This document shows positions 28,436-49,018 of a stretch of 64,000 nt of DNA, one piece after another; position 1 is the first letter of the stretch; every line of letters begins with the position of its first letter. Below the pieces are notes generated by a model. It was given only the letters and a program-made list of their open reading frames with translations. It ran no database searches and was not told where the DNA came from. The DNA comes from Acidobacteria bacterium SCN 69-37 (lineage in GTDB: Bacteria; Acidobacteriota; Vicinamibacteria; Vicinamibacterales; SCN-69-37), in NCBI GenBank assembly GCA_001724025.1, contig MEDJ01000009.1, positions 427,302-491,301 on the forward strand, in the 5' to 3' direction. The position numbers were made by a program, and so were the translations under genes.

Positions 28436-30826
28436 ATGGCCCTTCGCTGGCTCGGTCCCGGTCTCTTCCTCGCGACGCTCGCCACGCTGCTGCTCGAAAC
28501 GCTCAACGCGCGGCTGCTCTCGGTGCTGACGTGGTACCACCTCTCGTTCTTCGCCGTCTCGCTCGCCATGCTCGGCATGGCCGCCGGCGCAGTCCACGTA
28601 TTCCTGCGCCCCGACCGCTTCGCACCGGACCGCGCGCCGTCCGCGCTCGCCCGCACGGCGTTCTGGTTCGCCGCGTCGATTCCCGCCTCGCACCTGTGCA
28701 CGCTCGTCATCCCCTTCACGCCCATCAACAGCCTGACCACGATGGAAGTGCTGCCGGTGGCGGTGTTCACGATCGTGCTGGCCGTGCCGTTCGTGCTGTC
28801 GGGCGTGCTGGTGACGCTGGCGCTCACGCGCCTGGGCGGGCCGATCGGCCGGATCTACGCGTGGGACCTCATCGGCGCGGCCACCGGCTGCCTGCTCGTG
28901 ATCGTGCTGCTCGACCGGATGAACCTGACGTCCGCGTTCTTCGTCGCCGCAGCCGCCGCGGCCCTGGCCGCGTGGAGCTTCCATCGCGGCGCCGGCCTGG
29001 CGCACGGCCGGCGCGCGCTCGTGCTGGCCGTCACCTGCGCGCTGGTCGCCGTCGTCAACGCCCAGGGCATGGGCCAGTTCCAGATCGTCTACCCGAAGAA
29101 CCGGCAGTTGTGGCTGCAGAACAGCGCGAACGCCATCGCCCGCTGGAACAGCCACTCCTACGTCGTCGTCCATCGGCCCGGTGACAGCCAGGCATTCATG
29201 TGGGGACCGGCCATCGGCGCCGACCGGTTCCGCACGACCATCGCGTGGCTCGTGATCGACGGCGAGGCCGGATCGCCGATCACGCAGTGGGATGGCCGGC
29301 GCGAGTCACTCGACTGGGTCAGCTACGACGTGACGACGCTCCCCTACTTCCTACGGCGCGAGGGCGACGTGGCCATTGTGGGCGTGGGCGGCGGTCGCGA
29401 CGTGCTCGCAGCCCTCTGGGCGCGAAGTCGTTCGGTGGTCGGGGTCGAGGTCAACCGCATCATGCTCGACCTGCACCACGACACGCACCGCGACTTCTCG
29501 AAGATCGCGTTGCAGCCCGAGGTGACGCTCGTGCACGACGACGGCCGCGCGTATCTCACGCGGACCGACGCGCGCTTCGACGTGCTGCAGATCTCGCTGG
29601 TCGACACCTGGGCGTCGACGGGCGCCGGCGCGTTCTCGCTCTCGGAGAACGGGCTCTACACGCTCGAAGCCTGGCGCCTGTTCCTCGATCGCCTGAAACC
29701 GGGCGGCGTACTCAGCGTGTCGCGCTGGTTCGATCCCGACAACGTGTCGGAAACCAGCCGTCTGGTGTCGCTCGGGATCGCGGCGCTGATCGACGCGGGC
29801 GTGGAGCGGCCGCGCGATCACCTGGTACTGGCCGTGCGCGAGCGCGTGGCCACGCTGATGGTCTCGTCGACGCCGTTCACCGATGCCGACCGCGCCGTGC
29901 TCGAGGGCACACGCGACACGCGCGGCTACGCGCTGGCGGTTTCGCCCTGGGCCCCGGCCGCCGGGGGTCCGGTCATCGATCGCATTGCCGCCAGCACGAC
30001 GATGCCCGAGTTGCTGGCGGCCACGGCCGATCCCATCTACGACTATCGTCCGCCGACCGACGCGCGCCCCTACTACTTCAACATGCTCAAGCCGCAGGCG
30101 CTGTGGTCCGGCGTGGCGCTGCCGACCGAGGGCACGCTCGGCGGCAACCTGCGGGCCACGCTGATGCTGGTCGTGCTCTTCGGCGTGACGGCGGCGCTGG
30201 TGGCGCTGATCATCGTGTATCCGCTGGCGGCCGCGGGCCGGCCGACGGTGCCGATCGGGCGATTCACGCGGTCGATGAGCTACTTCGCGGTCATCGGCTT
30301 CGCGTTCATGCTGGTGCAGATCGGCTTTCTCCAGCGGTTTGCCGTGTATCTCGGCCATCCCACGTACACGCTGGCCGTCGTGCTGTTTTCGATGCTGCTC
30401 TGCGCCGGGCTCGGCAGTGCGATCTCGGAGCGGCTGTCGATCGCACCAGGCCGCCAGCAATTCCGCCTGATCCCGATCGCGATTGCGATGGCGCTCGCGG
30501 TGACGGCGCTGGCGCTGCCCGTCGTCGTGGCGCGGACGATCACCGCGGGTCTGGCGGCCCGCACGCTGCTGGTGCTTGCGTTCACCGCGCCGGTGGCCAC
30601 GCTGCTCGGCTTCTGCTTCCCGATCGGCATGCGCCTGATCGCCGACACGCCCGCGCTGGCCGCGTGGGCGTGGGGCCTGAACGGCGCCTTCGGCGTCCTG
30701 GCCTCGGTCCTGGCCGTGGGCCTGTCGATCTGGGTCGGCATCGATACGAACTTCTGGCTGGCGGCGGGACTGTACGGGTCGCTTGCGCTGACGATGGGCG
30801 CGATGACAGGGCGAGGGCGAAGTTAG
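28436..30826 (+). CDS. Spermidine-synthase-like membrane protein
   Basis: 796 aa. N-terminal six to seven helices (from MALRWLGPGLFLATLATLLL, including IGRIYAWDLIGAATGCLLVI), a central Rossmann methyltransferase-like domain (VAIVGVGGGRDVLAALWA, VVGVEVNRIM, VTLVHDDGRAYL) and a C-terminal six-helix block. This resembles the multidomain SpeE-like membrane proteins; enzymatic activity is unproven. AATACT sits 5 nt before the ATG. The final CGAAGTTAG (stop) lies in an AT-rich repeat arm. Confidence 0.85.
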   Translation: MALRWLGPGLFLATLATLLLETLNARLLSVLTWYHLSFFAVSLAMLGMAAGAVHVFLRPDRFAPDRAPSALARTAFWFAASIPASHLCTLVIPFTPINSLTTMEVLPVAVFTIVLAVPFVLSGVLVTLALTRLGGPIGRIYAWDLIGAATGCLLVIVLLDRMNLTSAFFVAAAAAALAAWSFHRGAGLAHGRRALVLAVTCALVAVVNAQGMGQFQIVYPKNRQLWLQNSANAIARWNSHSYVVVHRPGDSQAFMWGPAIGADRFRTTIAWLVIDGEAGSPITQWDGRRESLDWVSYDVTTLPYFLRREGDVAIVGVGGGRDVLAALWARSRSVVGVEVNRIMLDLHHDTHRDFSKIALQPEVTLVHDDGRAYLTRTDARFDVLQISLVDTWASTGAGAFSLSENGLYTLEAWRLFLDRLKPGGVLSVSRWFDPDNVSETSRLVSLGIAALIDAGVERPRDHLVLAVRERVATLMVSSTPFTDADRAVLEGTRDTRGYALAVSPWAPAAGGPVIDRIAASTTMPELLAATADPIYDYRPPTDARPYYFNMLKPQALWSGVALPTEGTLGGNLRATLMLVVLFGVTAALVALIIVYPLAAAGRPTVPIGRFTRSMSYFAVIGFAFMLVQIGFLQRFAVYLGHPTYTLAVVLFSMLLCAGLGSAISERLSIAPGRQQFRLIPIAIAMALAVTALALPVVVARTITAGLAARTLLVLAFTAPVATLLGFCFPIGMRLIADTPALAAWAWGLNGAFGVLASVLAVGLSIWVGIDTNFWLAAGLYGSLALTMGAMTGRGRS

Positions 30827-30900
30827 AAGTGAGAAGTACGAAGTTAGAAGTTTCGGAAAGTTCGAAGTCAGAAATTTGAAGTTAGAACTTCGAAGTTGGC
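30819..30900. repeat. AT-rich GAAGT repeat, left arm
   Basis: About eight imperfect copies of GAAGT-T/C-A/C-GAAGT-type units at 8-10 nt spacing in forward orientation (GAAGTTAGAAGTGAGAAGTA). Strikingly lower in GC than the surrounding DNA. It supplies the stop codon of the preceding gene and pairs in orientation with the right arm at 31394-31453. Confidence 0.85.
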
Positions 30901-30975
30901 GACGGACGAGGTCGCGACAGGACATTTGGACGGACAACGCCGAAGTTGGCCTGGCGGTTGCAAAGCTCCGTTGGC

Positions 30976-31329
30976 ATGCCGCGCGAGTCGTTCAGTGACC
31001 GCAGCTTCAGCTTCGCTGTCAGTCTTGTCAGGTTCCACCGGGAACTCTCGCGACGTCATGTCGATGTACCGAAAGCGTTGACCCACCAGATGCTGCGCGC
31101 CGGGACCGCCATCGGCGCAAACATCGAAGAAGCCCGCGCCGCATCATCGAGGCGCGATCTCACGGCGAAGCTCGCCATCAGCCTGCGCGAAGCACGTGAG
31201 TGCCACTACTGGCTGCGCCTGATTGCCGCCGATCGGCCGCAACTCGCGGAGACGATGAACGGCCTCCTCGACGAGTGCGAGCAGCTCATCGCCATGCTGA
31301 CCGCAACCGTGAAAAAGCTCCGCGGGTAG
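30976..31329 (+). CDS. Four-helix-bundle protein (S23/IVP family)
   Basis: 117 aa all-alpha protein of the family first seen inside 23S rRNA intervening sequences: FAVSLVRFHREL, then QMLRAGTAIGANIEEARAAS (the R-S/A-G-T-S-I-G-A-N-x-x-E-A signature), AISLREARECHYWLRLIAAD, and LLDECEQLIAMLTATVKKLR. The ATG opening MPRESFSDRSF fits the family N-terminus better than an ATG ten codons upstream. Biological role unknown; related proteins are associated with structured RNA and retroelements. It sits alone between inverted repeats. Confidence 0.88.
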   Translation: MPRESFSDRSFSFAVSLVRFHRELSRRHVDVPKALTHQMLRAGTAIGANIEEARAASSRRDLTAKLAISLREARECHYWLRLIAADRPQLAETMNGLLDECEQLIAMLTATVKKLRG

Positions 31330-31393
31330 CCGATGCCCGCCGCTCGTTCGTGTCCGCCCGTTGCTACCCGTCCCCGTCCTGGCCCCCCGCCCC

Positions 31394-31453
31394 TGAAGTT
31401 CGAACTTCCAACTTCGAACTTCTCACGTCACCGCCTTCGAACTTCTGACTTCC
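31394..31453. repeat. AT-rich GAAGT repeat, right arm (inverted)
   Basis: Inverse units such as GAACTTCCAACTTCGAACTT and CTTCGAACTTCTGACTTC. Its complement shares GGAAGTCAGAAGT and CGAAGGCGG with the element at 42.29 kb. It lies just before the HEAT-protein stop codon on the other strand. Confidence 0.85.
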
Positions 31454-31461
31454 GCCCCGCG

Positions 31462-32652
31462 CTACCGCGTCAGTTCGACAATCTGCAGCGCTGCGCGAAC
31501 CCGTGTCTCAGGATCGGCAGCGCGTAGAAAGCGCCGCAGCTCGGCGAAGTCGCCGCCGATGGTCTCCGGCAGCACGCGCTGCGCCTCTTCGCGAATCGCA
31601 AGATTCTGGTCGTTGACCAACCCCTGCATCGCCCACCGCGATGCCCCCGGATCGTGTTTCGCCAACAGACGAGCCGCTCCGATACGCACCATTGGATCCG
31701 GCGCCTCCAGCAGTTGCCTGACACGAGCCTCCCAACCAGCGTCGGGATTGACGGCGGCAATCTCGGCGGCCTTCAGCCGGACGTCGGCCGCTTCCGAATC
31801 AAACCAATCTTGGACGAAGCGCAAAGGCGCTTGATTACCCATTCGAAGCAGGCTCGAGGCAGCCGCCATCCGAGGCAGCAACTGCACGTCTGACTCAAGC
31901 ACCTGACTCAACTGCGGCACCGTCGTCCGCGCGTCCAAGTCGCCCAAAGCGAGTGCCGCCGCCGCTCGAATTTCGGGTCGCGGGCTGTCCAGCATTTGCA
32001 GGACCGGCTTGATGGCACTCTGGCTTCTGCTGCGGCCCAACGCGCGAATGGAATCGACCGGTCGCGGATCATCTGGCAACGCTGCAGCCAGTTCCGCAAC
32101 GGCTCTCCCATCACCCGCCGCAGCCAGAGTGCGGGCGTCAACGGACGCCTGCTCGGCAGATAGTCGAACATAGGCGGCCACGTCAGTGTCCCCATCACGC
32201 GCGAGTGCGTTCGCCACATCGGTCCGAAGCTGAATGTTCGTCAGTGACGTCGCGGCATCGTATAGCAGCGCCCGTGCGACACGCCTCAGGACATAGAAAT
32301 CCTCGACGGCTCGGCCGCTTACCCACTGCTCATATGCACCGAGCCCCGCCTCCCATCCCTGCTGCGCAATGGCCGCCTCGACGGCCAGCGCAATCACCGC
32401 AGGATCGCGAGGATGGTTCTGCATCAACCGCCCAGCTACTGCCGCTGCCCGCGCCAGTTGTCCCTGTGCCACAGCAGCCCAGCCTTCAGCGATTGCCGCC
32501 GCCTCCTCCGTGGGCACGGCCCCAGGTACAGTCCGCGTCTGTGCGACAGCAGGCTGAGCGAAGCCGAGTCCAGATACCAGCAGCAGGACGAGCGCGGCAA
32601 GGCGCCCTCCGCCCTGCCGGACACGAGAGGACATCACCATAAGCAGCATCAT
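31462..32652 (-). CDS. Secreted HEAT-repeat protein
   Basis: 396 aa with an N-terminal signal peptide (RLAALVLLLVSGLGFAQPAV, then AQ). A helical N-terminal half (TPR-like, AQGQLARAAAVAGRLMQNHP) is followed by HEAT units: PRPEIRAAAALALGDLDART, DVRLKAAEIAAVNPD, DPMVRIGAARLLAKHDPG, and NLAIREEAQRVLPETIGG. Probably a periplasmic protein-protein interaction scaffold. GAGAGG eight nt upstream supports the start used. Base composition is lower in GC than its neighbours. Confidence 0.82.
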   Translation of the reverse strand: MMLLMVMSSRVRQGGGRLAALVLLLVSGLGFAQPAVAQTRTVPGAVPTEEAAAIAEGWAAVAQGQLARAAAVAGRLMQNHPRDPAVIALAVEAAIAQQGWEAGLGAYEQWVSGRAVEDFYVLRRVARALLYDAATSLTNIQLRTDVANALARDGDTDVAAYVRLSAEQASVDARTLAAAGDGRAVAELAAALPDDPRPVDSIRALGRSRSQSAIKPVLQMLDSPRPEIRAAAALALGDLDARTTVPQLSQVLESDVQLLPRMAAASSLLRMGNQAPLRFVQDWFDSEAADVRLKAAEIAAVNPDAGWEARVRQLLEAPDPMVRIGAARLLAKHDPGASRWAMQGLVNDQNLAIREEAQRVLPETIGGDFAELRRFLRAADPETRVRAALQIVELTR

Positions 32653-32726
32653 GACACTGACCTCTCGTAACAGACGTCGGGATCGCCGACACAGCCGGCT
32701 CGCGTCAAGATATTCTTCCTCGTGCT

Positions 32727-34457
32727 GTGCCTGTCCTGATCCGCTGCACGCTCCTCGTCGTCCTGCTCGCCTTGCGACTTCCCTCGCTCGTCCAGCCGGC
32801 CGGAGCGGATCAGAGCCTGTACGCCTACATCGGGCAGGCGATTCTGAACGGGGGCGCGCCGTACGTCGACGCGTGGGACCAGAAACCGCCGGGCGTGCAC
32901 GTCCTTTACGCGCTGCTCTGGTCGATCTGGCCCGACGAACGCATCGTCAACGTGGCCGATCTCGTGGCGGCCGTCGGCGTCTGCTGGCTGCTGATCGTCC
33001 TGGGACGTCGCGTGGCGACGCCGACCGTCGGCTGGGTGTCGGCCTGCGGCTTCGCTCTGTTGGCCAATCCGTCGCTGCAGCGGCTAAGTGGCGTCTTCGT
33101 GCGAGCGCAATGCGAAACGTTCATCGCCCTGGCCGTGACCGGTGCGCTGGTGCTGGCCACGGTCCGCACGCGCCGCGTGGCCGCGATGGCCGGTGCGGGC
33201 GTGCTGCTCGGCTGTGCGATCTGGCTGAAGTACAACGCCGTGGTGTTCGCCCTGCCTGTCGTCGCCGCGCTCTGGGCCTGGCAGCCCCGACTCACGCGCC
33301 GCGACCGGCGACCGCTCCGCGACCTGCTCGTGCTGACGGCCGCGGCGGCCGTGCTCGGCGTGATCGGCCTGATCTGGCTGGCCTGGCACGGCGCCCTCAC
33401 CGACCTGTGGCTGGCCACGTTCACCTACAACGTCGAGTACTCGAGCGCCGGCTACAGCGGCCCCGGCGCCGTCGTCCGCTACCTGTGGATGCTGCCACTG
33501 CGGCAGGCGCGGCACGAACTGCTGTGGCTGCTCGGCCTCGGCGGTGTCGTCCTTGGCCTGATGACGGCCCCGGCGCGACGCGCGGCGATCGTCGCCGGAG
33601 CCTGGATCGTGGCCGCCGTGGTGGCCATCGCACTCAACGGTCGCGATCTCCCGCAGTACTTCGTGCAGGCCACGCCCGCCCTGGCGTTCGCCGGCGGCGT
33701 CGGCCTGGTGGCCGGCTGGACGTCGCGCGTCCTCGTCCTGCGCGCGGCCATCGTGCTGCTGCTCGTCGCCGGGTTCTGGCGCATCGGGACGGACCGGTAC
33801 GTCCTCGGCGTGGCGCGCCTCGGCGGCCTGCCGGGCCTGGTCGACAACATCGGCTTCGACCTCGCGTACGCCCGCGGCCGGATCGATCGCCGCATGTACC
33901 TCGATCGGTTCGGCGGCAATCGTCCGCAGGACAAGTACTCCGCTGGCGATGTCGAAGACTTGGCTCGCGAAATCGCCGCAGCCACCACGCCGGACGAAAC
34001 GATTCTCGTCTTCGGTTTCTCGCCAGGCGTATACGTCAAGGCACATCGCCGAAGTGCCACCCGCTTCTTCTGGAGCTATCCCGTCGTCATCGAATTCGCT
34101 GCAGACCGGCCCGGTTATGGCAGCCGCGGCCTCCTTGAGGATCTCGTTAGGAACAAGCCGGCGGTCGTAATGTTGCAGAAGGGCGACTGGAAGCCGGATT
34201 CCTACGCATTCTTCATGAGCCGACCCTCGCTCGTCTCCTGGCTGGAAAGCAACTACGAGCGAACGGGCAACTTCCCGCGTTTTTCGGTCTGGCAGCGCAT
34301 TGCCCCAGAGCACCACACGAATTTGATTGGAGACTCGACAAGAGCCGGCTATAATTTCCCGGCTCCTGCCACTATTGCACGTTCGGCGGGCGCCGATAAG
34401 AGTCAACGAGAGAAGTCCACTCACGAATGGCTATCGGCGTCTATGTCACCGCCTTGA
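32727..34457 (+). CDS. GT39-like integral membrane glycosyltransferase (paralogue 1)
   Basis: 576 aa. Motif after TM1: AGADQSLYAYIGQAILNGGA and PYVDAWDQKPPGVHVLYAL, the D-x-S...Y-x-D-x-W-x-x-K-P-P pattern of lipid-phosphate-sugar transferases. About 10 helices, then a C-terminal soluble domain (from about 370: DRRMYLDRFGGN, LVFGFSPGVYVKAHRRSATR, ending in a Ser/Lys-rich tail). The 42.4-43.9 kb gene has the same plan and a close C-terminal match (RATYLEAFGGYANNRGYSAR). GTG start. The last 400 bp drop in GC. Substrate unknown. Confidence 0.8.
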   Translation: MPVLIRCTLLVVLLALRLPSLVQPAGADQSLYAYIGQAILNGGAPYVDAWDQKPPGVHVLYALLWSIWPDERIVNVADLVAAVGVCWLLIVLGRRVATPTVGWVSACGFALLANPSLQRLSGVFVRAQCETFIALAVTGALVLATVRTRRVAAMAGAGVLLGCAIWLKYNAVVFALPVVAALWAWQPRLTRRDRRPLRDLLVLTAAAAVLGVIGLIWLAWHGALTDLWLATFTYNVEYSSAGYSGPGAVVRYLWMLPLRQARHELLWLLGLGGVVLGLMTAPARRAAIVAGAWIVAAVVAIALNGRDLPQYFVQATPALAFAGGVGLVAGWTSRVLVLRAAIVLLLVAGFWRIGTDRYVLGVARLGGLPGLVDNIGFDLAYARGRIDRRMYLDRFGGNRPQDKYSAGDVEDLAREIAAATTPDETILVFGFSPGVYVKAHRRSATRFFWSYPVVIEFAADRPGYGSRGLLEDLVRNKPAVVMLQKGDWKPDSYAFFMSRPSLVSWLESNYERTGNFPRFSVWQRIAPEHHTNLIGDSTRAGYNFPAPATIARSAGADKSQREKSTHEWLSASMSPP

Positions 34458-34468
34458 GTCTTGAATCC

Positions 34469-36655
34469 ATGGCAACAAATTTTCTTCGCTTGACCTCGTT
34501 GCTTCTGTTCATCACTGCCGCGACATTGCACCCGGCGGCGGCGCACGCCCAGATTACGCCAGCCAGCGGTCCATCAAAGGTGCTCATTGAGGGCACGGCC
34601 TTTCACGGAGGTTCCGCTAAAGGAACGAACGTGGCGTACGACTCGAAAAATTCCGTCTTCTTGGTCGTATCTGGGTACGGAGCGGCGTACGGGACTTTTG
34701 TGGACTCGGTCGGAAATCCCAGGACTGGCCCTTTCCCGATTCTCGGCGGAACTGGCTTCGGCCATTTTCCAAGCATCATCTACAGCCCAGATTTGACGGA
34801 CGGCATGGGAGGGACAGGGGCGTTCCTGGTCACGTGGAACTCGGCACCAGTGTCCGGGAACAACGTCTACGGCCAGGTCGTTTCGTACCGCGCCCAGAGC
34901 ACGGGTTACGTCGTCGGTTCACCGTTTATGATTTCTGACGGTGAACCAACCTATTGGGAGGTCAACCCACCTGCGGTTGCGTATTCGCCAGCGAGCAAGT
35001 CATTCATGACGGTGTGGCGAACGCTCGCCGCCGGAATCAAGGTTCGACAGGTTCTTCTCAATGGTGCCGGTGTGCCGAGCGTCGGAGCGTTGGTGGCAGT
35101 TCATGTCCCGTCGGCAAATGCACTGGCACAGTTTCCGAGTATCGCCTACAACCCAGTGGCAGACCATTTTGGAGTCAGCTACAGCGCATATCCACCTAAC
35201 TCGAAGACCATCCTGCCTTGGGTGTCATTTGCACGCCTTACACCGAGCGGGACGATTGTGTCGAACGTAACGTTCGACAACGCGGCTGGCACGTTCGTTA
35301 CGGATGTTGCTGTCAATAGCTCTAACGGCAACTACCTCGTCAGCTGGTCACCGGGCCCCGGAACCAGAGGCACCGAGTTCAACTCGGCTGGGCAGATTCT
35401 TGGTGCGGGATGGCTTTCTCCGAGAGTGGGGAGTACAGATTCCGGCACCCTCGCGTTTTCGCCCGTCTCGAAGACCTTTCTGTTGACCGGACAAGATCAG
35501 CAATCCTACGCCGCAGTGGCGGTCGAACTAAGTTCGAGAGGCAGCCCCGTTTCCAATACCGTGGTGATCAACTCACCCGTGCCAGCAAAGGGGACATATT
35601 TTCCAGAGGTTGCGGCGAGTTCGAGCACCCCCGCCTGGCTGGCCACGTTCAGTGCCTGGGAGGCGAAGAGCAGTTCCGTTTCTTCCCACTTGTTGGTGAC
35701 CACGAGCACGAACGGTGCCGGCAATTCCGCCCTGGGCACGGCCGGCGGCACGGGTGGCGGCACGACGACGCCTCCGCCGGCAACGGGCTGCAGCACACCA
35801 TCCCCGGGCTCGGGCTGGACGTGCGTCAACGGCGGCTGGCTGCCGCCCCCGTCGTCGGGCGGCGGCACGGGGAGCACGGGGAACACGGGTGGCTGCCCCG
35901 GCACCGCCCCGTTCGCCGGCGCCGTTTGCCAGAATGGCGGCTGGGTCCCCGGTACGGGCGGTAGCACGGGCAACACGGGGAATACGAGCGGTTGCCCCGG
36001 CACCGCGCCGTTTGCCGGCGCCGTTTGCCAGAACGGTGGCTGGGTCCCGGGCACGGGCGACAGCACGGGCAACACGGGGAATACGAGCGGTTGCCCCGGC
36101 ACCGCGCCGTTCGCCGGTGCGGTCTGCCAGAACGGCGGCTGGGTCCCGGGCACGGGCGGCAGCACGGGCAACACGAGCGGCTGCCCCGGCACCGCGCCCT
36201 TTGCCGGTGCGGTCTGCCAGAACGGTGGCTGGGTCCCGGGCACGGGCGGCAGCACGGGCAGCACGGGGAACACGAGCGGCTGCCCCGGCACCGCGCCCTT
36301 TGCCGGTGCGGTCTGCCAGAACGGTGGCTGGGTCCCGGGCACGGGCGGCAGCACGGGGAACACGAGCGGCTGCCCCGGCACCGCGCCGTTCGCCGGTGCG
36401 GTCTGCGTGAACGGCGGCTGGGTTCCCGGCTCCGGTGGCAGCGGCGGCGGCTCGACGTCGAGCTGCACCACGGCCTCCCCCGGTGCGGGCTGGACCTGCC
36501 GCAACGGCGGCTGGCTGCCGCCCGGCATGGCGTCGACCTCGTTCGAGCCGATGGCCACCGTCGCGCAGGCGTTCGCCCCGGCAGCGAACGTCGCCGCAGG
36601 ACGTCAGCCCCTGCCCGCGGCAATCGCGTCTGTCGTTCGTCACGAGCGCACCTGA
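34469..36655 (+). CDS. Secreted protein with C-terminal tandem Cys-pair repeats
   Basis: 728 aa. Signal peptide FLRLTSLLLFITAATLHPAA, then AHAQ. Residues about 30-430 are beta-rich, with repeated F-L-V/V-W patterns (NSVFLVVSGYGAAYGTFVDS, GAFLVTWNSAPVSGNNVYGQ) suggesting a propeller or sandwich. From about 440, six near-identical 30-34-residue units CPGTAPFAGAVCQNGGWVPG linked by GST/GNT, flanked by degenerate C-x10-C-x-NGGWLPP units. Each has two Cys. I prefer this ATG over one 14 codons upstream because it begins the signal peptide. The first half is AT-richer than its surroundings. Function unknown; surface adhesin is a guess. Confidence 0.8.
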   Translation: MATNFLRLTSLLLFITAATLHPAAAHAQITPASGPSKVLIEGTAFHGGSAKGTNVAYDSKNSVFLVVSGYGAAYGTFVDSVGNPRTGPFPILGGTGFGHFPSIIYSPDLTDGMGGTGAFLVTWNSAPVSGNNVYGQVVSYRAQSTGYVVGSPFMISDGEPTYWEVNPPAVAYSPASKSFMTVWRTLAAGIKVRQVLLNGAGVPSVGALVAVHVPSANALAQFPSIAYNPVADHFGVSYSAYPPNSKTILPWVSFARLTPSGTIVSNVTFDNAAGTFVTDVAVNSSNGNYLVSWSPGPGTRGTEFNSAGQILGAGWLSPRVGSTDSGTLAFSPVSKTFLLTGQDQQSYAAVAVELSSRGSPVSNTVVINSPVPAKGTYFPEVAASSSTPAWLATFSAWEAKSSSVSSHLLVTTSTNGAGNSALGTAGGTGGGTTTPPPATGCSTPSPGSGWTCVNGGWLPPPSSGGGTGSTGNTGGCPGTAPFAGAVCQNGGWVPGTGGSTGNTGNTSGCPGTAPFAGAVCQNGGWVPGTGDSTGNTGNTSGCPGTAPFAGAVCQNGGWVPGTGGSTGNTSGCPGTAPFAGAVCQNGGWVPGTGGSTGSTGNTSGCPGTAPFAGAVCQNGGWVPGTGGSTGNTSGCPGTAPFAGAVCVNGGWVPGSGGSGGGSTSSCTTASPGAGWTCRNGGWLPPGMASTSFEPMATVAQAFAPAANVAAGRQPLPAAIASVVRHERT
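35883..36460 (+). repeat. In-frame tandem DNA repeats (90-102 bp units)
   Basis: Six tandem units encode the CPGTAPFAGAVC-x-NGGWVPG module. Unit length varies by multiples of 6 bp through GST/GNT linker number, and third-codon bases differ little (TTTGCCGG versus TTCGCCGG), suggesting recent expansion by slippage or recombination. Confidence 0.9.
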
Positions 36656-36735
36656 GACACGAACGCCGGGGCCGACTGACGGTCCCGGCGTCGTTTCAAG
36701 GAACAACGCGTCGTAGCCCTCGTGGCCTTGTAGCC

Positions 36736-36770
36736 TTCCCCGAGGCTGAAGCCTCGGGGCTCCGAAAAGC
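36736..36770. repeat. REP-like palindrome
   Basis: CCCCGAGGCTGAAGCCTC plus GGGG (36738-36759) followed by CTCCGAAAAGCGCAG, in the gap between the secreted protein and gmd. A degenerate second half-copy follows. Confidence 0.85.
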
Positions 36771-36847
36771 GCAGCCTCTGGGCGCCGAAAAGAGCAGCGT
36801 CCAGCCTTCCGGCCTCCTCCCAGCCTGCAGCCTCCCAGCCTTCGTAG

Positions 36848-37828
<981 letters not shown>

Positions 37829-37925
37829 GCCCCGGAAACTTGCTTCTCAACCATGAAGAGCATGGAGGACATGGAAAGATCCCTTTTTTCATGCTCTCCA
37901 TGCCTCCAAGGTCAGCGCGATCGAC

Positions 37926-38216
37926 GGTGAGCACGATCGCCCGTTGCTCATAGACCTCGGACAACCAGCGTTTGTCGAGCGCAGCGCACGAGCTTTCAGC
38001 GCGTGCGAGCGCCGTCGAAGCCTGGAGAACCCACCTTTCTTTTCTCCATGCTCCCCATGTCCTCCATGGTGAGAGTGCCCGCCCGTCGCGTGGAGCCCCC
38101 GAACAGCCGGCGTTTGCCGAGTGGCGCGCAGGAGTTTTCAGCGCGTCCGAGCGCCGTTGAAGCATAGAGAACCCAAAATTCTTTTCTCCATGCTCCCTAT
38201 GTCCTCCATGGTGAGC
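37926..38216. repeat. 142-bp repeat, two tandem copies
   Basis: GGTGAG-start units begin at 37926 and 38068, and the next partial start is at 38210 (period 142). Shared segments include GCGTTTGTCGAGCG/GCGTTTGCCGAGTG, GGAGTTTTCAGCGCG and TTTTCTCCATGCTCCCCATG. A third, 108-bp copy is at 40200. Just upstream, AGAGCATGGAGGACATGG at 37858-37875 is complementary to the end-of-unit motif. No gene is supported in 37830-38258. Confidence 0.88.
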
Positions 38217-38258
38217 GCGTCTGGAAGCGGTCTCAAAATCGGCGTAGCTGGATGAGGG

Positions 38259-38894
38259 TCATCGTCCTCGTCCAAGCGTCTGAAGATAGGCGCAGAACAT
38301 GTCAGCCATTGCATCGGCATAGGCTTTGATTTCCGCCCTGGTTCGCCGTGTCTGGGAAAAGCTGCTGCCAACGGTGCTGAGCGTCGTGAAGATGAGATCG
38401 CCCGCCAACTCGCGGGACGCAGCGGACGCCCGTGGCAAGGCTTCCATCATGAAGGCATCGACCATCCGGTCGCCTTCGGCGCGGGCTCGGCGCGCCTCCG
38501 GGCTGTCGCGATAGAGCGGGGCCGCGTCATTGAGCGCACCGCGAACCTGGGCCTCTTCGCACTCGGAGCGAAGGAAGGCGTGCACGAGGGTACGCAGGCG
38601 CTCCGGGCACGACGCACTCGCATCTTCGAGGATGTTTCGCAGCATCCGGGTCGTCTGCATCCACTCATCGACCTGGAGACGGAACAGGATCGACGCCTTG
38701 TTGGGGAAATATTGATAGATCGACCCGACGCTGACGCCGGCCTTCTCGGCGACGCGCGCGGTAGTGAATCGGGTGGCCCCTTCCCGGGCCAGAACTTGCG
38801 CGGCGGCTTCCAGGATGGCTGCGACCAGTTCGGTCGAACGCGCCTGTTGCGGCTGCTTGCGCGAGGCGATCTGCGGACGGCGGCGGGTAGTCAT
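38259..38894 (-). CDS. TetR-family transcriptional regulator
   Basis: 211 aa. HTH region: TTARVAEKAGVSVGSIYQYF followed by PNKASILFRL, classic TetR. The C-terminal ligand domain is generic (a TetR_C type). Divergent from the SDR gene at 39285 across a 390-bp AT-rich gap that contains a good inverted repeat, so it probably represses that gene and itself. Start at MTTRRRP; an ATG six codons earlier is possible. Confidence 0.92.
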   Translation of the reverse strand: MTTRRRPQIASRKQPQQARSTELVAAILEAAAQVLAREGATRFTTARVAEKAGVSVGSIYQYFPNKASILFRLQVDEWMQTTRMLRNILEDASASCPERLRTLVHAFLRSECEEAQVRGALNDAAPLYRDSPEARRARAEGDRMVDAFMMEALPRASAASRELAGDLIFTTLSTVGSSFSQTRRTRAEIKAYADAMADMFCAYLQTLGRGR

Positions 38895-39284
38895 CGTGGT
38901 ATGGCGATGCAAGGCTCAGTGCGCGGAAATCCGATCGGCTTGCCGGCATCACCTCGCCCCTTGGTCGATGGTCTGCGTGGTCGCTTTACGTCTCAACCAG
39001 GTGCCCGTTCATTTCTGACGGAAAACCTGAGCTCTTGGCGCCACCTCGACCTCCGTGGACGCAACTGAACCAGCGCAACCACAGTGTTTTCATGGAAGGC
39101 ACGGGGTTTTGTGCCTCGGATCGGGACGGAAGAAAACACGAACCCGAACGCGAATTCAAAATGTGAATTTTACGTCATATCATTTCAATAACGCGAATGA
39201 TTAATCGCGTTTAACCATCTCACGGCGAGGACGTGGAATGTCGATTCGCCTGGGCTGAATCAACGTCCAACAGGAGATTCTGCA
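38895..39284. promoter_or_regulatory. Divergent TetR/SDR intergenic region
   Basis: A 390-bp gap, AT-rich between 39070 and 39240, with no gene. It contains the candidate operator at 39190-39211 and AGGAG just before the SDR ATG. The composition contrasts with the high-GC genome and suggests DNA from elsewhere. Confidence 0.6.
39190..39211. promoter_or_regulatory. Candidate TetR operator
   Basis: Perfect 7-bp inverted repeat AACGCGA-N8-TCGCGTT with an AT-rich centre (ATGATTAA), 73 bp before the SDR start. Size and symmetry fit a TetR dimer site. Confidence 0.6.
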
Positions 39285-40148
39285 ATGCACGTCTTTGTCA
39301 CTGGCGCCACGGGTTGGGTCGGCTCTGCCGTGGTTGACGATTTGCTCGCTGCCGGCCACCAGGTCACGGGCCTGGCCCGTTCCGCCGACAAGGCCGCCTC
39401 GCTTACGGCAGCGGGCGCGAAAGTTGTCCAGGCCACGCTCGATGATCTGGAAACGCTGCGTTCCGTCGCGTCGACGGCGGACGCGGTGATCCATACCGCA
39501 TGGGGCAGCGACTACTCCACGTTCATCGAGAACTGCGAACAGGACCGTCGCGCGATCGACGCGCTGGGCGCTGCGCTGGAAGGCTCGAACCACCCGTTGC
39601 TCGTCACTTCCGGTCTGCTCGGATTACCGGTCGGGGCCACGGAATCGGATCTGCCCAACCCGGCCTCGCCACGCAGGTCCGAAGCGACCGCACGCCTGTG
39701 GGCCGAACGCGGTGTGCGTGCAGCGACGGTGCGCCTCGCCCCATCGGTGCATGGCCTCGGCGATCACGGCTTTGTGCCAATCCTGATCCGCACGGCGAAG
39801 CAGAACGGCGTATCGGCCTACCTCGACGGTGAGAACCGCTGGGCCGGCGTGTACCGACTGGATGCCGCGCGTGTCTTCCGTCTTGCGCTGGAGCAGGGGG
39901 TCACCGAATCGGTCTATCACGCCGTCGCGGATGAAACGGTGCCCTTCAAGGCCATCGCCGAAGTCATCGGCAGCCGCCTGGGCCTGCCGGTCGAACCGCG
40001 CGCCCCTGAGCACTTCGGCTGGTTTGCCCACTTTGCCGGCGCGAACCTGTCCGCCTCCAGTGCCCGCACGCGCGAACGGCTCGGCTGGACGCCCGAAGGC
40101 CCGAGCCTGCTCGCTGACCTCGATCAGCCCGCCTACTACGCCGGGTGA
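39285..40148 (+). CDS. NAD(P)-dependent epimerase/SDR family oxidoreductase
   Basis: 287 aa atypical SDR. HVFVTGATGWVGSAVVDDLL is the nucleotide-binding loop; DAVIHTAWGSDYSTFIENCE, LLVTSGLLGLPVG and APSVHGLGDHGFVPILIRTA follow; the C-terminus has ARTRERLGWTPEGPSLLADL. The usual catalytic Y-x-x-x-K is replaced by S-P-R-R-S-E around residue 128, as in some epimerase-like subfamilies. Substrate unknown. AGGAG 10 nt before the ATG. It is paired with the divergent TetR. Confidence 0.88.
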   Translation: MHVFVTGATGWVGSAVVDDLLAAGHQVTGLARSADKAASLTAAGAKVVQATLDDLETLRSVASTADAVIHTAWGSDYSTFIENCEQDRRAIDALGAALEGSNHPLLVTSGLLGLPVGATESDLPNPASPRRSEATARLWAERGVRAATVRLAPSVHGLGDHGFVPILIRTAKQNGVSAYLDGENRWAGVYRLDAARVFRLALEQGVTESVYHAVADETVPFKAIAEVIGSRLGLPVEPRAPEHFGWFAHFAGANLSASSARTRERLGWTPEGPSLLADLDQPAYYAG

Positions 40149-40199
40149 TCCATCGTGCGCAATTCCTGAGTGTGCCAATGTCTCGAGAACAGTCTCCAT

Positions 40200-40313
40200 G
40201 GTGAGAGCGACCACCGGTTGCGTGGAGCCGCCGAACGACCGGCGTTTGCCGAGTGGGGCGCAGGAGTTTTCAGCACGTCTTTTCTCCATGCTCCCCATGC
40301 CCTCCATGGTGAA
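40200..40313. repeat. 142-bp repeat, third copy (internally deleted)
   Basis: Same orientation as the copies at 37926-38216: GGTGAGAGCG, CCGGCGTTTGCCGAGTGG, CAGGAGTTTTCAGC and TTTTCTCCATGCTCCCCATG, missing about 34 bp in the second half. Together with the left copies it brackets the TetR/SDR pair. Confidence 0.88.
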
Positions 40314-40370
40314 AATGCTCGCCCGTGCCGGCGCCGAGAAAGGCCTGGAGCGGCCCCACGGCTACACGGT

Positions 40371-41267
40371 TCAGCGACCTGCCGCGAGCCGCGCGGCGAG
40401 CAGGATCGCCTCGACCATGCTGCCAGCGTCGGCCTTGCCCTGGCGGGCGATGTCGAACGCGGTGCCGTGATCGACGGACGTGCGGACGATCGGGAGCCCG
40501 ATCGTCACGTTGACCGATCGCCCGAACGCCAGCAGCTTCACCGGCACCAGGCCCTGATCGTGATACGCGGCAATGACGACGTCGAAGTCGCCGCGGGCCG
40601 CACGCACGAACAGCGTGTCGGCCGGGAACGGCCCGTCGACGTCGATGCCCGAGGCCTGGGCCCGCGCGATGGCCGGGCGCATCACCTCGATCTCTTCCCT
40701 GCCCATCAGCCCGTCTTCGCCCGCGTGCGGATTCAGGCCGGCCAGGGCAATCCTCGGCGTCGCGATCCCGAACCGCGGCAGCGACCGCGCCGTGAGCGCA
40801 ATGACCCCGGTCAGTCCGTCGAGCGTGATCGCCCGTGGCACATCGGCCAGCGCGATGTGCACGGTGGCCAGGACGACGCGCAGTTCGTCGGACCAGAACA
40901 TCATCGCCACCTCGGACGCGTCGCACAGGTGCGCGAGCAGGTCCGTGTGGCCCTTCCAGGCGAGCCCCGCGGCCGCGAACGACGCCTTGTTGATCGGCGC
41001 GGTGGCCATCGCGTCCACGCGGCCGGCCAGGGCGTCGGCCACGGCGCGCTCGATCGTGTCGTACGCCGCGCGGCCGGAACGGGCATCGATCTCCCCCACC
41101 GGAAACATCGCCACATCGTCGTCTGCGATCGGACCGTAGACGATCGGTTCGCACACCGCGCGAACGCGGCGATCGGCGATGGCCGCGCGGACGATCTCGG
41201 GTCCGATTCCCGAGGGGTCGCCCGTGGTGACGGCCACGCGCGGCAGGCGACCGGATGCCGCGCTCAC
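40371..41267 (-). CDS. pdxA: 4-hydroxythreonine-4-phosphate dehydrogenase
   Basis: Oxidises 4-phosphohydroxythreonine in DXP-dependent pyridoxal phosphate synthesis. RVAVTTGDPSGIGPEIVRAA, ATAPINKASFAAAGLAWKGH with the catalytic Lys/His region, GLNPHAGEDGLMGREE (metal His), and VIAAYHDQGLVPVKLLAFGR, then DHGTAFDIARQGKAD. 298 aa. GTG start overlapping the holB stop by 4 bp. Confidence 0.96.
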   Translation of the reverse strand: MSAASGRLPRVAVTTGDPSGIGPEIVRAAIADRRVRAVCEPIVYGPIADDDVAMFPVGEIDARSGRAAYDTIERAVADALAGRVDAMATAPINKASFAAAGLAWKGHTDLLAHLCDASEVAMMFWSDELRVVLATVHIALADVPRAITLDGLTGVIALTARSLPRFGIATPRIALAGLNPHAGEDGLMGREEIEVMRPAIARAQASGIDVDGPFPADTLFVRAARGDFDVVIAAYHDQGLVPVKLLAFGRSVNVTIGLPIVRTSVDHGTAFDIARQGKADAGSMVEAILLAARLAAGR

Positions 41268-42259
41268 AGCGTCACCGCCAGCAGGTCGGCCACGATCTTC
41301 GGGCTCGCGTAGCGGGCGAGATCCGCTTCGGCGCGCCGAACGGCCCCGAACGCAGCCACGAGGCGGTCGGCCGGGAACTTCGGCACGAGCGGCTCGAGGT
41401 GCGAAACCAGATCGCTGTTGGCGACCGCGCCGGGCCCGCGGACGTCGATGGCGAGCAGATCCCGCAGGAGCGACGCGAGGATGGCCAGGCGCGACGCCAC
41501 GGCCTCGCGGCTGCGGCGCTTCTTCTCCACCTGCGAGAACGCGGCCGCCGCTTTCAGGCGCGACGGCAGGTGCCGATCGGCAGCCGCGTCGAGCAGGCCG
41601 AGCGCCGCGGCCCTGTCGTCGACGAACGCCTTTCCATCGGCCGCCAGCGCCCGCGCGATGCTGCCACCGGCCACCAGCGCGCGGTGGCGGGCGTCCACCG
41701 GATCCAGCCCGCAGACCGGCCCCGTCAGCACGCGGACCACGTCGTCCTCGTCGAGCGCGCCGAAGCGCACGCGCCGGCAGCGCGACCTGATGGTCCCCAG
41801 CAGACTGTCGGGAAATGCGGTGACGAGAATCAGGATGGCGGCCGGCGGCGGTTCCTCGAGCGTCTTGAGCAGCGCGTCCTGCGCCTGCGGCGTCAGGTCG
41901 TCAGCCGGATCGATGATGAAGACGCGCCGGCGTCCCTCGAATGGCCGGTATCCGATCTGCAGCAGCACCTGATCGCGCAGCGGCTCGATGCCGATCGACG
42001 CCCTGTCGCCGCGGTCGAGCGTGATCACATCGGTGTAGGTGCCGGCCGCGATGCGCCGGCAGGTATTGCACGCGCCGCACGCGTCGCCCTCGGTCGACTG
42101 CGGGCAGTTGATCGCCTGCGCCAGCGCCACGGCGGCCGTGTATTTCCCGACGCCCTCGGGCCCCGCAAACAGCAGGCTCTGCGGCACGCTGCCGCGGATC
42201 ACCGCCCGACGCAGCAGCTCGAGCACCCGGGTATGACCGGCGAGATGAGCAAAGGACAC
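41264..42259 (-). CDS. holB: DNA polymerase III delta' subunit
   Basis: Clamp-loader subunit. N-terminal AAA+ region: LLFAGPEGVGKYTAAVALAQ (Walker A-like), the zinc cluster C-G-A-C-N-T-C (DACGACNTCRRI), VFIIDPADDLTPQAQDALLK (Walker B-like), and LEEPPPAAILILVTAFPDSL with the sensor-1 area, then TIRSRCRRVRF. 331 aa. GTG start; TACAAT (42266-42271 on the minus strand) ends 6 nt before it, consistent with a leaderless pdxA-holB mRNA. Confidence 0.94.
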   Translation of the reverse strand: MSFAHLAGHTRVLELLRRAVIRGSVPQSLLFAGPEGVGKYTAAVALAQAINCPQSTEGDACGACNTCRRIAAGTYTDVITLDRGDRASIGIEPLRDQVLLQIGYRPFEGRRRVFIIDPADDLTPQAQDALLKTLEEPPPAAILILVTAFPDSLLGTIRSRCRRVRFGALDEDDVVRVLTGPVCGLDPVDARHRALVAGGSIARALAADGKAFVDDRAAALGLLDAAADRHLPSRLKAAAAFSQVEKKRRSREAVASRLAILASLLRDLLAIDVRGPGAVANSDLVSHLEPLVPKFPADRLVAAFGAVRRAEADLARYASPKIVADLLAVTL

Positions 42260-42286
42260 GGGGGAATTGTACGAGGAGATCGACTC

Positions 42287-42358
42287 GGAAGTCAGAAGTG
42301 AGAAGTCAGAAGTACGAAGGCGGAAAAGTTCGAACTTCGAACTTCTGACTTCTCACTT
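42287..42358. repeat. AT-rich GAAGT repeat, gene-less copy forming a near-perfect hairpin
   Basis: 24-bp arms at 42296-42319 and 42335-42358 (AAGTGAGAAGTCAGAAGT and its complement) match at 23 of 24 positions, with a 15-nt loop. It fills the gap between the start of holB and the end of the GT39-like gene. Same family as the arms at 30.8 and 31.4 kb. Confidence 0.9.
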
Positions 42359-42359
42359 G

Positions 42360-43946
42360 TCAGTCGTCTCTCCTGTAGACCGCGAAGTCTTCGATCTGGA
42401 CCTCGAACGTGTAGTCGTCGAGCAGCGCGAGGACGGATGGTTCGGTCGTGAGGTGGCTCAGGGCGTCGCCGATGACCGATGCCGCGTGCAGGTTCTCGAA
42501 GATCAGGTACCGCGGACGACGCGCGGCCAGGTCGCTGGTGACGGCGCTGATGTGGAAGCGCGGGTCGGGGAACCCGTCCGGATAGAAGAAATTCAGACGC
42601 AGGAACCTGTGCGCCGTCAGCCGCCCGGCCAGGAAGTAGACGCCGGCCCCATTGATGCCGAACAGGAACACCTGCTCATCGACCGTCGTGTGGCGTGCGA
42701 GATAGTCGGCCAGTTCCTGATTGGCCCGGGCCGAATATCCGCGGTTGTTCGCGTAGCCGCCGAACGCCTCGAGGTACGTCGCCCGATCGATCTGCCCCGT
42801 CAGCCGATGCCAATCGTCCGCCGTGCGCGCGGCCGCCCGCCCGGGGTACGACCCGAACACGAGCAGCACGGTCATGACCGTCGCCAGCGCCGCGCGCCCC
42901 ACCCTGGCCAACCGCGGCGCGTGCACGGGCCGCTCGACCAGCCACCAGGCCGCGGCCAGACACAGCGGCGCGTGCGCCTGCAGGAAGTACGAATTGAACA
43001 GGCGTGCGCCGTTCACGAAAATCACGACCAGCGACGCCCCGCCCCAGCACAACGCCAGCGCCGCCAGCGGCGGCACGGTGCGCGTGCGCAGCAGGCGCGC
43101 GCAGGCCACGAGGGCCGCCACCACGCCGCCGGCCCAGACCGGGTCCGTCTTCACCCGCAGCCACACCGCCTTGGCCAGCGCTACCAGGTGCTCAGGCGTA
43201 GCGAGCCCCAGCGCCACGTAGTACCTGTTGAAATCGACAATCGCTGTACGGGCCTCGGCCAGCGCGCCGACAGACCACAGCCAGGCGAACGTCAGCACGA
43301 CAGGCAGCAGCGCGCCCGCCACCATCACCACGCCCACACGCACGGCCATGCGCAGCGGCCGCTGCCCCGCCGGCAGGACGTACCACCACCAGGCCCACAC
43401 CGCCGGCAGATACACCGCGGCGTTCGGCTTGTAGAGCGCGGCCACGCCGCCGAACGCGCCGGCCGCCATCGCCCACCCCAGACCGCGGCCCGTGCCGATC
43501 CGCGTCGCACACAGCGCGATCGCGCCCACGCAGACGACGATGAAAGTTTCGCAGACGCTCCGCTCGAGGAAGCCGCCATAGCCATAGAGGCCGGCCGGCA
43601 TCGTCAAGGCGGCAAAGAGCACGGCGGCCACCGCGCCCGTCATCCGATCCGCCAGCCTCGTGCCGAGTCGCCACAGCAGCCACGTCGTCAGCGCGGCGGC
43701 GATCACGTCGAGCCAGGCGACCGTGGCTTCGGTCCAGCCGAGCGTGGTGAAGCCGGCGAGATACGTGAGGTAGATGGCAGGGGGCCGCTGTTCCCAGACG
43801 TCGACGTAGAGCGTCTGCCCGCGGCCCATCCCGTACACGGCCGACGCCCACAGGCTCTGATCGATGCCGAGCGGTTCGACGACAGCCACCGCCCGTGCGA
43901 TCAGGGCGGCCACGGCCAGCAGCAGGAGAACGGTCCGGAGCACCAC
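42360..43946 (-). CDS. GT39-like integral membrane glycosyltransferase (paralogue 2)
   Basis: 528 aa. LGIDQSLWASAVYGMGRGQT then LYVDVWEQRPPAIYLTYL gives the same D-Q-S...V-D-x-W-x-Q/R-P-P motif as the 32.7 kb paralogue; about 11 helices and a C-terminal periplasmic domain (ATYLEAFGGYANNRGY, FLFGINGAGVYFLAGRLTAH). Likely transfers a sugar from a polyprenyl carrier. GTG start. TATCCT lies 10 nt upstream. Divergent from the WxcM-like gene. Confidence 0.82.
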   Translation of the reverse strand: MVLRTVLLLLAVAALIARAVAVVEPLGIDQSLWASAVYGMGRGQTLYVDVWEQRPPAIYLTYLAGFTTLGWTEATVAWLDVIAAALTTWLLWRLGTRLADRMTGAVAAVLFAALTMPAGLYGYGGFLERSVCETFIVVCVGAIALCATRIGTGRGLGWAMAAGAFGGVAALYKPNAAVYLPAVWAWWWYVLPAGQRPLRMAVRVGVVMVAGALLPVVLTFAWLWSVGALAEARTAIVDFNRYYVALGLATPEHLVALAKAVWLRVKTDPVWAGGVVAALVACARLLRTRTVPPLAALALCWGGASLVVIFVNGARLFNSYFLQAHAPLCLAAAWWLVERPVHAPRLARVGRAALATVMTVLLVFGSYPGRAAARTADDWHRLTGQIDRATYLEAFGGYANNRGYSARANQELADYLARHTTVDEQVFLFGINGAGVYFLAGRLTAHRFLRLNFFYPDGFPDPRFHISAVTSDLAARRPRYLIFENLHAASVIGDALSHLTTEPSVLALLDDYTFEVQIEDFAVYRRDD

Positions 43947-44001
43947 GAGGAGCCGCAGGATACCATCGGCCGTGGCAATGAATCGGATAGCATCGTCAGC
44001 G

Positions 44002-44970
44002 ATGTCTGCCGCGCCGGATCGAGACGGGCCCGCCGAGATTCACCCGCACGCACTCTGTGAGAGCCCGCACGTCGGGGCCGGCACGCGCGTCGGGGCCTTC
44101 GCGCACGTACGGCCGGGCGCGCGGATCGGCGGCCACTGCCAGATCGGCGATCACGTCGTCATCGAGAACGACGTGGTGATTGGCGATCGCGTGACGATCG
44201 AGGGCGGTGCGCGGATCGTCGACGGCGTGCGCATCGGCGACGACGCGCGGATCGGCCCGGACGTCACGTTCTCGCCCCACCCGCCGGACAATGGTCACAG
44301 CGGATCGCTCACGCCGATCGTTGTTGGTGCGGGCGCGTCGATTGGCGCGGCGGCGGTCGTGCTGCCGGGACTGAAGATCGGCGCGCAGGCAGTCGTCGGC
44401 GCGGGGGCCGTGGTCACGCACGACGTGCCGCCGCGGGCAATCGTGTCCGGGCCCCCGGCGGGCATCGTCGGCTACGTCGACGCGCAGCGCCGGCCCGGAT
44501 CGGCTTCGGGCGCGCGCACGCCCGGAGCGCACGCGTCGGCGGTGCGTGGCGTCCACGTGCAGCAGATGCCGCTGTTCGAGGACCTGCGCGGGGTGCTGAC
44601 CGTCGGACAGGCCGACGCCGATCTGCCCTTCGTCCCGCAGCGGTATTTCCTGGTGTTCGACGTGCCGGGTCAGGACGTCCGCGGCGAGCACGCGCACCGC
44701 GTCTGCCACCAGTTCCTCGTCTGCGTGCACGGGTCGGTCGCGGTCGTGGTCGACGACGGGCGGACATCCGAGGAGATCGTGCTGGATCGGCCGGATCTCG
44801 GGCTCCACGTACCGCCGATGGTGTGGGCCGTGCAGTATCGCTACTCGTCCGACGCCGTGCTGCTCGTCCTGGCGTCGCACGCCTACGACGCGGCTGACTA
44901 CATCCGCGACTACGACGAGTTCCTCGCCCTGGTCGACGCGGCGCCGCTGCCTCCCCGGCCGGAGGCCTGA
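44002..44970 (+). CDS. WxcM-like fusion: hexapeptide acyltransferase plus cupin ketoisomerase
   Basis: 322 aa. N-terminal left-handed beta-helix (VGAGTRVGAFAHVRPGARIG, VVIENDVVIGDRVTIEGGAR, VVGAGAVVTHDVPPRAIVSG) is a sugar O/N-acetyltransferase. From about residue 180 a cupin of the FdtA/QdtA/WxcM type follows: FEDLRGVLTVGQADADLPFV, FDVPGQDVRGEHAHRVCHQF with the His cluster, VPPMVWAVQYRYSSDAVLLV and YIRDYDEFLAL. It likely isomerises a dTDP-4-keto-6-deoxyglucose and acetylates its amine product. TAGCAT ends 8 nt before this ATG; another ATG lies eight codons upstream. Confidence 0.88.
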   Translation: MSAAPDRDGPAEIHPHALCESPHVGAGTRVGAFAHVRPGARIGGHCQIGDHVVIENDVVIGDRVTIEGGARIVDGVRIGDDARIGPDVTFSPHPPDNGHSGSLTPIVVGAGASIGAAAVVLPGLKIGAQAVVGAGAVVTHDVPPRAIVSGPPAGIVGYVDAQRRPGSASGARTPGAHASAVRGVHVQQMPLFEDLRGVLTVGQADADLPFVPQRYFLVFDVPGQDVRGEHAHRVCHQFLVCVHGSVAVVVDDGRTSEEIVLDRPDLGLHVPPMVWAVQYRYSSDAVLLVLASHAYDAADYIRDYDEFLALVDAAPLPPRPEA

Positions 44971-44984
44971 GGCTTCAGGGGCGC

Positions 44985-45289
44985 GGGTCGGCGCGTTCCC
45001 TGGGGCTGAAGCCCCAGGGCTCCGAGCGTCGGGGAGAGCGCCTCGACGATGATCCCCCGAGGCTGAAGCCTCGGGGCTCCGAGCGTCAGGGGGAGCGCCT
45101 CGACGATGTTCCCCCGAGGCTGAAGCCCCAGGGCTCCGAGCGTCAGGGAGAACGCCTCGACGATGTTCCCCCGAGGCTGAAATCTCGGGGCTCCGAGCGT
45201 CAGGGGGAACGCCCTCGACGATGTTCCGCGCGTCGGGGCTCCGCGCGCTCAGTCTGTCGGAGCCCCGAGGCTTCAGCCTCGGGGAGGAG
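44985..45289. repeat. Tandem REP-like array, 57-bp period
   Basis: GGCTGAA is repeated at 45004, 45061, 45118 and 45175, exactly 57 bp apart, each within a CCCCGAGGCTGAAGCCTC-type palindrome followed by CTCCGAGCGTC and CGCCTCGACGATG spacer. A degenerate fifth unit follows, and one inverted copy closes the array at about 45258-45287. The closing copy contains the stop codon of the GT2 gene. Confidence 0.92.
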
Positions 45290-46217: not shown

Positions 46218-46315
46218 GCGATCGTGCCGCGATTATAGAACCGTGCGGCGCATGAGCGGTGTGAGCAGTTGCGCGGGCGCGCTTCGGATGTCATAATCGC
46301 CTGATGCCGGTCGCC

Positions 46316-46390
46316 GGGCGGTTAGCTCAGAGGTAGAGCACCGGCCTTACACGCCGGCTGTCGCAGGTTCGATCCCTGCACCGCCCACCA
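46316..46390 (+). tRNA. tRNA-Val (anticodon TAC)
   Basis: Acceptor GGGCGGT pairs with ACCGCCC; anticodon stem CCGGC/GCCGG encloses loop CTTACAC with anticodon TAC; T-arm GGTTCGATCC; CCA is encoded. Followed 45 bp later by tRNA-Asp. Confidence 0.97.
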
Positions 46391-48859: not shown

Positions 48860-48865
48860 AGGACG

Positions 48866-48905: not shown

Positions 48906-48913
48906 AAAATAAT

Positions 48914-49018
48914 AAGTTCGAAGTACGAAGTTAGAAGTGTCGGGATTTCGAAGTTCGAAGTTCGAACTTCGAGGTTGGCCGCACTTCTGACTTCAGACTT
49001 CGAACTTCTAACTTGTCA
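48914..49018. repeat. AT-rich GAAGT repeat, second gene-less copy
   Basis: AAGTTCGAAGTACGAAGTTA-type units run forward and then in reverse (GACTTCGAACTTCTAACTT), with the palindrome CGAAGTTCGAACTTCG in the middle. It lies between the arsR operator and the sulfatase stop. Confidence 0.87.

Follow-up and report, generated by a model that had tools for sequence, protein, structure and literature searches.

What is a gene for a small four-helix-bundle protein doing between inverted repeats, when the same repeats also stand elsewhere without any gene? The question is raised by a stretch of 64,000 nucleotides (the window) from the genome of Acidobacteria bacterium SCN 69-37. An earlier note on this DNA described inverted AT-rich GAAGT repeats around a gene of the S23/IVP family and two gene-less copies with both arms, and compared the whole to a non-autonomous element with MITE-like forms and to the intervening sequences of 23S rRNA.

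The Hairpin and Its Gene in the Window

The sequence GAAGTNNGAAGT, with up to one mismatch allowed, occurs 35 times in the window, whereas dinucleotide shuffles of the window gave 0.95 expected matches and a maximum of 3. All matches except one fall in three clusters, 30819–31452 and copies B and C of Table 1. GAAGTNN heptad arrays occupy exactly three sites of the window, one with the S23/IVP gene inside and two without a gene, so that both the inverted repeats around the gene and the two gene-less copies proved real. The repeats are not loosely AT-rich, as had been thought, but consist of GAAGTNN heptads. The left and right arms of the gene-bearing copy are inverted relative to each other (e.g., 27 nt at 89% complementarity). 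Its left outer arm, spacer and inner block are arranged as in the gene-less sites, and the gene lies in the loop. On its 3′ side, a spacer separates the inner block from an outer arm that is shorter than the one on the left. The transcript folding proposed earlier gave a predicted fold in which the arms are paired (z −3.9). An Rfam search of window positions 30000–50000 returned two tRNAs only and no family for the hairpin.

Table 1. Components of the gene-bearing hairpin and positions of its gene-less copies in the window.
Feature	Position	Strand	Remarks
Left outer arm	30819..30851	+	five heptad cores, GAAGTTA-GAAGTGA-GAAGTAC-GAAGTTA-GAAGT
Spacer	30852..30856	+	5 nt, TTCGG, divides outer from inner heptads; tcggg, gcggg etc. 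in gene-less copies
Left inner heptad block	30857..30896	+	
S23/IVP four-helix-bundle gene	30946..31329	+	hairpin loop; stop TAG 31327-31329
Right inner heptad block	31397..31429	-	GAAGT on minus strand
Right outer arm	31434..31452	-	three heptad cores
Gene-less hairpin copy B	42288..42359		GAAGT x4 ... ACTTC x4, end ACTTG
Gene-less hairpin copy C	48913..49015		flanking genes collinear in same-genus G001, hairpin absent there

The gene is a member of the S23/IVP four-helix-bundle family, matching PF05635 (E 1.2e-15, 58.1 bits against a cut-off of 33.8) and TIGR02436 (E 9.8e-22, 77.2 bits against 24). Its frame opens with TTG at 30946, and the in-frame ATG at 30976 is the likelier start. IVP is the only Pfam match of the gene, and no Y1 (HUH) transposase lies between the repeats. 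At orthologous sites the dN/dS of IVP genes is 0.06–0.14; this purifying selection indicates that the protein is functional. IVP matches the Avd family in PHROG and the five-chain structures 2GSC and 2RLD, of which 2GSC (XCC0516) is also matched by the IVP protein found between accB and accC in Xanthomonas. 2GSC is described as five four-helix bundles (reference list of PMC10053308), and IVP is homologous to Avd, the protein of diversity-generating retroelements (DGRs; PMC10053308). A link to defence was sought with PADLOC, which gave no match.

Copies across the Source Genome

The two gene-less copies reported earlier are correct for the window but not as a number, as the exact triple heptad has 139 matches across the 4.43 Mb of the genome (25 contigs), and its reversed control has none. 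About 35 genomic sites were inspected, and they have one composite architecture that goes beyond a tandem array. An outer arm of about 33 nt is followed by a spacer of 5–7 nt, self-folding inner heptads, a second spacer and the mirror arm. The outer arm comprises three to four GAAGTNN heptads, and the mirror arm ends in ACTTG or ACTTC; at many sites the terminal heptad is CAAGT or CAACT, and CAAGT/ACTTG termini are frequent. Array lengths vary, and the total length ranges from 70 to 175 nt. Since outer arm, spacer and inner block match those of the IVP copy, the gene-less sites represent the same hairpin minus the gene.

The source genome encodes a second IVP (L001, G000 C9:134325), which is flanked by inverted 8-nt units AGGCTNNN and runs antisense to both neighbours. 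This unit has 3 matches in the genome and is hardly dispersed, which counts against a dispersal reading.

Inverted Arms as a General Trait of IVP Loci

PF05635 is present in 42 of 60 relatives, and four-helix-bundle genes do lie between arms there, as the earlier note had suggested checking. Inverted arms were scored by locally aligning the 400 nt on the left with the reverse-complemented 400 nt on the right, with a score of at least 36 as the threshold. They accompany 55 of 71 IVP loci in the home order and 55 of 78 in other phyla, the latter collected with one conserved peptide pattern from a closer six-sequence alignment and biased to one subfamily. Among the controls, arms were found at 3/128 pseudo-genes set at an offset of 1.7 kb within these loci and at 0/29 ParE toxin genes in related genomes (Fisher p about 1e-27). 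Of the 55 other-phylum loci that pass, 50 have arms with a period of 7 or 14; these periods also dominate in the home order, where 8- and 9-nt units are found as well. The arms are polar: the G-rich one is on the left and the C-rich one on the right in 86 of 94 informative units. Additionally, 12 of the 13 IVP loci in a sample of annotated cyanobacterial plasmid records have inverted arms exceeding all 50 shuffles; AGTAGGG and GTGACAG are among their units. Inverted heptad-type arms are a general property of IVP genes across phyla.

Lineage Specificity of the Units

It had been considered that the arms might occur widely without association with four-helix-bundle genes. GAAGT arrays (at least 5 matches) were found in 12 of 42 IVP-positive genomes and in none of the 18 IVP-negative ones (Fisher p 0.008). 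The GGGAGTC unit has 65, 235 and 72 matches in three congeners (G016, G028 and G038) and almost none elsewhere, and in G028 and G038 the arms of an IVP gene are built from it; GACGAGT is found in 2 of 60 genomes. The units differ by lineage and are confined to few genomes, of which nearly all are IVP-positive. Three observations count against a dispersal reading. G016 has its 65 GGGAGTC matches, yet the IVP at the orthologous site carries a different unit; G017 has 3 GGGAGTC matches without an IVP match; and G005, whose genome is 87% complete, has half-sites without a detectable IVP. At the G005 loci (L229–L233), GAAGT half-arms stand singly and share a conserved GACAAGT terminus; with no PF05635 match in the genome, they are either relics or the trace of an IVP that escapes detection.

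The unit tends to follow the protein. Matches of at least 6/7 positions are seen in 2% of pairs with 30–40% IVP identity, 27% of pairs with 60–80% and 6/6 pairs above 80%. The similarity of units is correlated with that of proteins (Mantel r 0.18, 11/2000 permutations) in a set that includes three masked loci whose unit is N, and common descent partly explains this correlation. In two guaB/guaA copies (L107 and L122) with 60% identical IVPs, the units are AGGGACT and AGACGTA, and the arms pair in each. In three congeners, IVPs occupy one common genomic site (L038, L044, L046); at L046 the unit is another one, with only about 50% IVP identity and flanks about 80% identical, and either replacement of the IVP or very fast change in place has occurred there.

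Gain and Loss between Congeners

Congeners differ by gain or loss of array sites. Aligned by their flanks, three of three G028 GGGAGTC sites are absent from G038, while in G016 the middle one of the same three is present and the third absent. Hairpin C is missing between collinear genes in same-genus G001. The earlier note had suggested checking relatives for empty sites; for the gene-bearing copy none was found, as synteny on its right side is broken in G001, G003 and G005. There is no target-site duplication, as the mean direct repeat in the flanks is 4.2, against 4.0 in shuffled pairings. In the Xanthomonadaceae and some Betaproteobacteria, IVP is kept at one conserved site over family-level divergence and hence does not hop freely in these groups. 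Both the missing duplication and such lasting residence, seen in some families, disfavour a classic transposon. Of the comparison with a non-autonomous element and its MITE-like forms, the internal IVP gene and the gene-less versions of the same hairpin stand. Mobility as such is favoured indirectly, by gain and loss of array sites, genome-restricted units and the common non-repeat architecture.

Residence in Operons

Outside the home order, IVP genes sit between co-directional partner genes confirmed with Pfam. The host operons include accB/accC, guaB/guaA, ruvA/ruvB, dnaK/dnaJ, pheS/pheT, carA/carB, ahcY/metF, thyA/folA, atpA/atpG and pdhA/pdhB, in a set of other-phylum loci biased by its origin from one conserved peptide pattern. 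In E. coli, the accB–accC, guaB–guaA and carA–carB gaps measure 10, 68 and 17 bp, respectively, with no insert. On cyanobacterial plasmids, IVP is found at cas6/cas4, cas10/cmr3, an AAA ATPase/ParB pair, nrdB/nrdA (in antisense) and in a conjugation operon. The IVP gene has the direction of its co-directional neighbours at 40 of 40 called loci outside the home order, the neighbours having been predicted with a composition-scored caller that was checked against the window genes and missed the minus-strand ORF 31462–32652. There is no co-orientation in the home order (++15, --16, +-20, -+5); hence, operon residence is not universal.

Relation to Known Systems

The 23S rRNA intervening sequence of Coxiella burnetii contains an S23/IVP ORF within complementary flanks that form a 28 bp stem (PMC4990558), and a CPR survey placed IVP ORFs within 16S and 23S insertions. 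The window element likewise has an ORF of this family between flanks pairing into a long stem. In contrast, its host is an intergenic region or operon, its stem is built from heptads in tandem, and copies without the gene are scattered over the genome. The 23S motif is absent from all 278 loci fetched, and Rfam finds tRNAs only, so that an intervening sequence proper is rejected on location; the kinship supposed earlier, with an intergenic version here, is upheld by the common protein family and the pairing flanks.

In RAYT/REP systems, one protein gene lies between inverted repeats and is vertically retained, and the lineage-specific repeats have many gene-less palindromic copies. The window system also has dispersed gene-less copies of its flanking repeat, but a four-helix bundle without a transposase domain takes the place of the RAYT protein and heptad arrays that of the REPs. 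RAYT/REP proper is rejected, as there is no Y1 transposase in the window element and no Y1_Tnp match in G020 and G030, and a MITE proper is rejected on the target-site duplication. DGRs offer a homologous fold and family in Avd (PMC10053308). Avd acts with a reverse transcriptase (RT) and TR/VR, whereas IVP genomes often have no RT match; RVT_1 gave no match in seven heptad-rich IVP-positive genomes, and a DGR proper is likewise rejected.

Heptads of GGGAATC in Xanthomonas and GGGGA(C/T)T in Nostoc have been reported, with 70–75 convergent inverted pairs per genome; the repeats were described as generally not associated with mobile elements, and S23/four-helix proteins are unmentioned in that text (PMC4692102). 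The Xanthomonas unit is identical to that of the arms of the Xanthomonas accB/accC IVP, and the orphan heptads of Xanthomonas and cyanobacteria belong with the IVP heptad hairpins. The TAACTGA heptads of Beggiatoaceae are abundant intergenic direct repeats with only one indirect repeat and no IVP link reported (PMC4679880); by this description, they resemble the window arrays as intergenic heptads. Within the open-licence PMC literature, we found no report tying IVP genes to heptad repeats or operon junctions.

A Probable Two-Part System and Its Alternatives

The recurrence of gene plus hairpin in many phyla, often in essential operons, and the many gene-less hairpins genome-wide look like an undescribed repeat-spreading system. 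The window element is probably one copy of such a widespread two-part system, dispersed in a RAYT/REP-like way. One part would be IVP, a small pentameric four-helix-bundle protein related to Avd, and the other a lineage-specific array of roughly 7-nt repeats forming a hairpin. The master copy would hold the IVP gene in its hairpin loop, with gene-less copies scattered across the genome. The protein may recognise the heptad hairpin of its own element in single-stranded form, either transcript or ssDNA, and this recognition could let host enzymes copy the hairpin into new intergenic sites. The outcome would be like that of RAYT proteins spreading REPs, but with a protein that has no transposase domain. 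Once transcribed, the arms would form a long stem, possibly processed as in 23S rRNA intervening sequences, whose stems are excised by RNase III, and such a stem could make the cassette harmless inside operons.

Could the system instead be a domesticated one, in which IVP binds heptad stems and tunes operon-mRNA stability or differential expression, the dispersed hairpins being regulatory sites and not selfish copies? The conserved positions in core operons, the co-orientation (40 to 0) of IVP genes with co-directional neighbours outside the home order, the strong purifying selection, the predicted stem folding and the guaB/guaA arms, replaced with their pairing kept, are all consistent with it. 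We nevertheless regard it as unlikely: array sites turn over between congeners, the home order lacks co-orientation, and the operon partners are unrelated between lineages, so that insertion fits better than a single regulatory role.

Still less probable is a spread of the arrays by slippage, recombination or host repair, with IVP genes as passengers that happen to insert into heptad hairpins or persist there. The IVP-less arrays of G005, varying array lengths and the lack of target-site duplication point that way, but at most IVP loci the gene is flanked by inverted arms of its own whose polarity is conserved, protein and unit are correlated, and heptad-rich genomes are IVP-positive. Mobilisation of the hairpins in trans, as REPs or MITEs, with either a Y1 transposase (RAYT/IS200) or a DGR-type RT as the agent, would agree with the homology of IVP to Avd (PMC10053308) and with the one Y1_Tnp and two RT matches of the source genome. 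It seems very improbable, as heptad-rich G020 and G030 have no Y1_Tnp match, G016, G028, G038, G023, G046, G048 and G052 no RT match, and the Y1_Tnp of the source genome no GAAGT triple heptad nearby; dependence on RAYT or RT is thus unsupported.

There is about an even chance that IVP and its heptad hairpins constitute a new mobile or self-propagating class across phyla, driven by a pentameric protein and not by a transposase, with co-evolving unit specificity and insertion into core operons, and that this class is the origin of the Xanthomonas, cyanobacterial and other heptamers. If IVP drives dispersal, the repeats would be spread by a mechanism that lacks any recognisable transposase. A protein family familiar for decades mainly through rRNA intervening sequences gains a testable role, and orphan heptamers reported separately in Xanthomonas and Nostoc are brought together. 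The results also suggest that long-stem intervening sequences occur in messenger operons as well as in rRNA.

Other Repeats in the Window

A further tandem repeat, distinct from the heptads, lies at 44980–45200; its repeat length is about 55 bp, and it includes a GC-rich palindrome (CCCTGGGGCTGAAGCCCCAGGGCTCC). Short segments of G005 and of other relatives match its copies. An ORF at 34427–36655 carries the repeated motif GCPGTAPFAGAVCQNGGWVPGTGGSTGNTGNTS, and similar repeats are found on contig C2 of G001. Beside hairpin C, at 48867–48906, a near-perfect 19-bp palindrome (TCGTATGCCTACTTGCGAA / TTCGCAAATAGGCATACGA) stands directly 5′ of a minus-strand gene and is possibly an operator.
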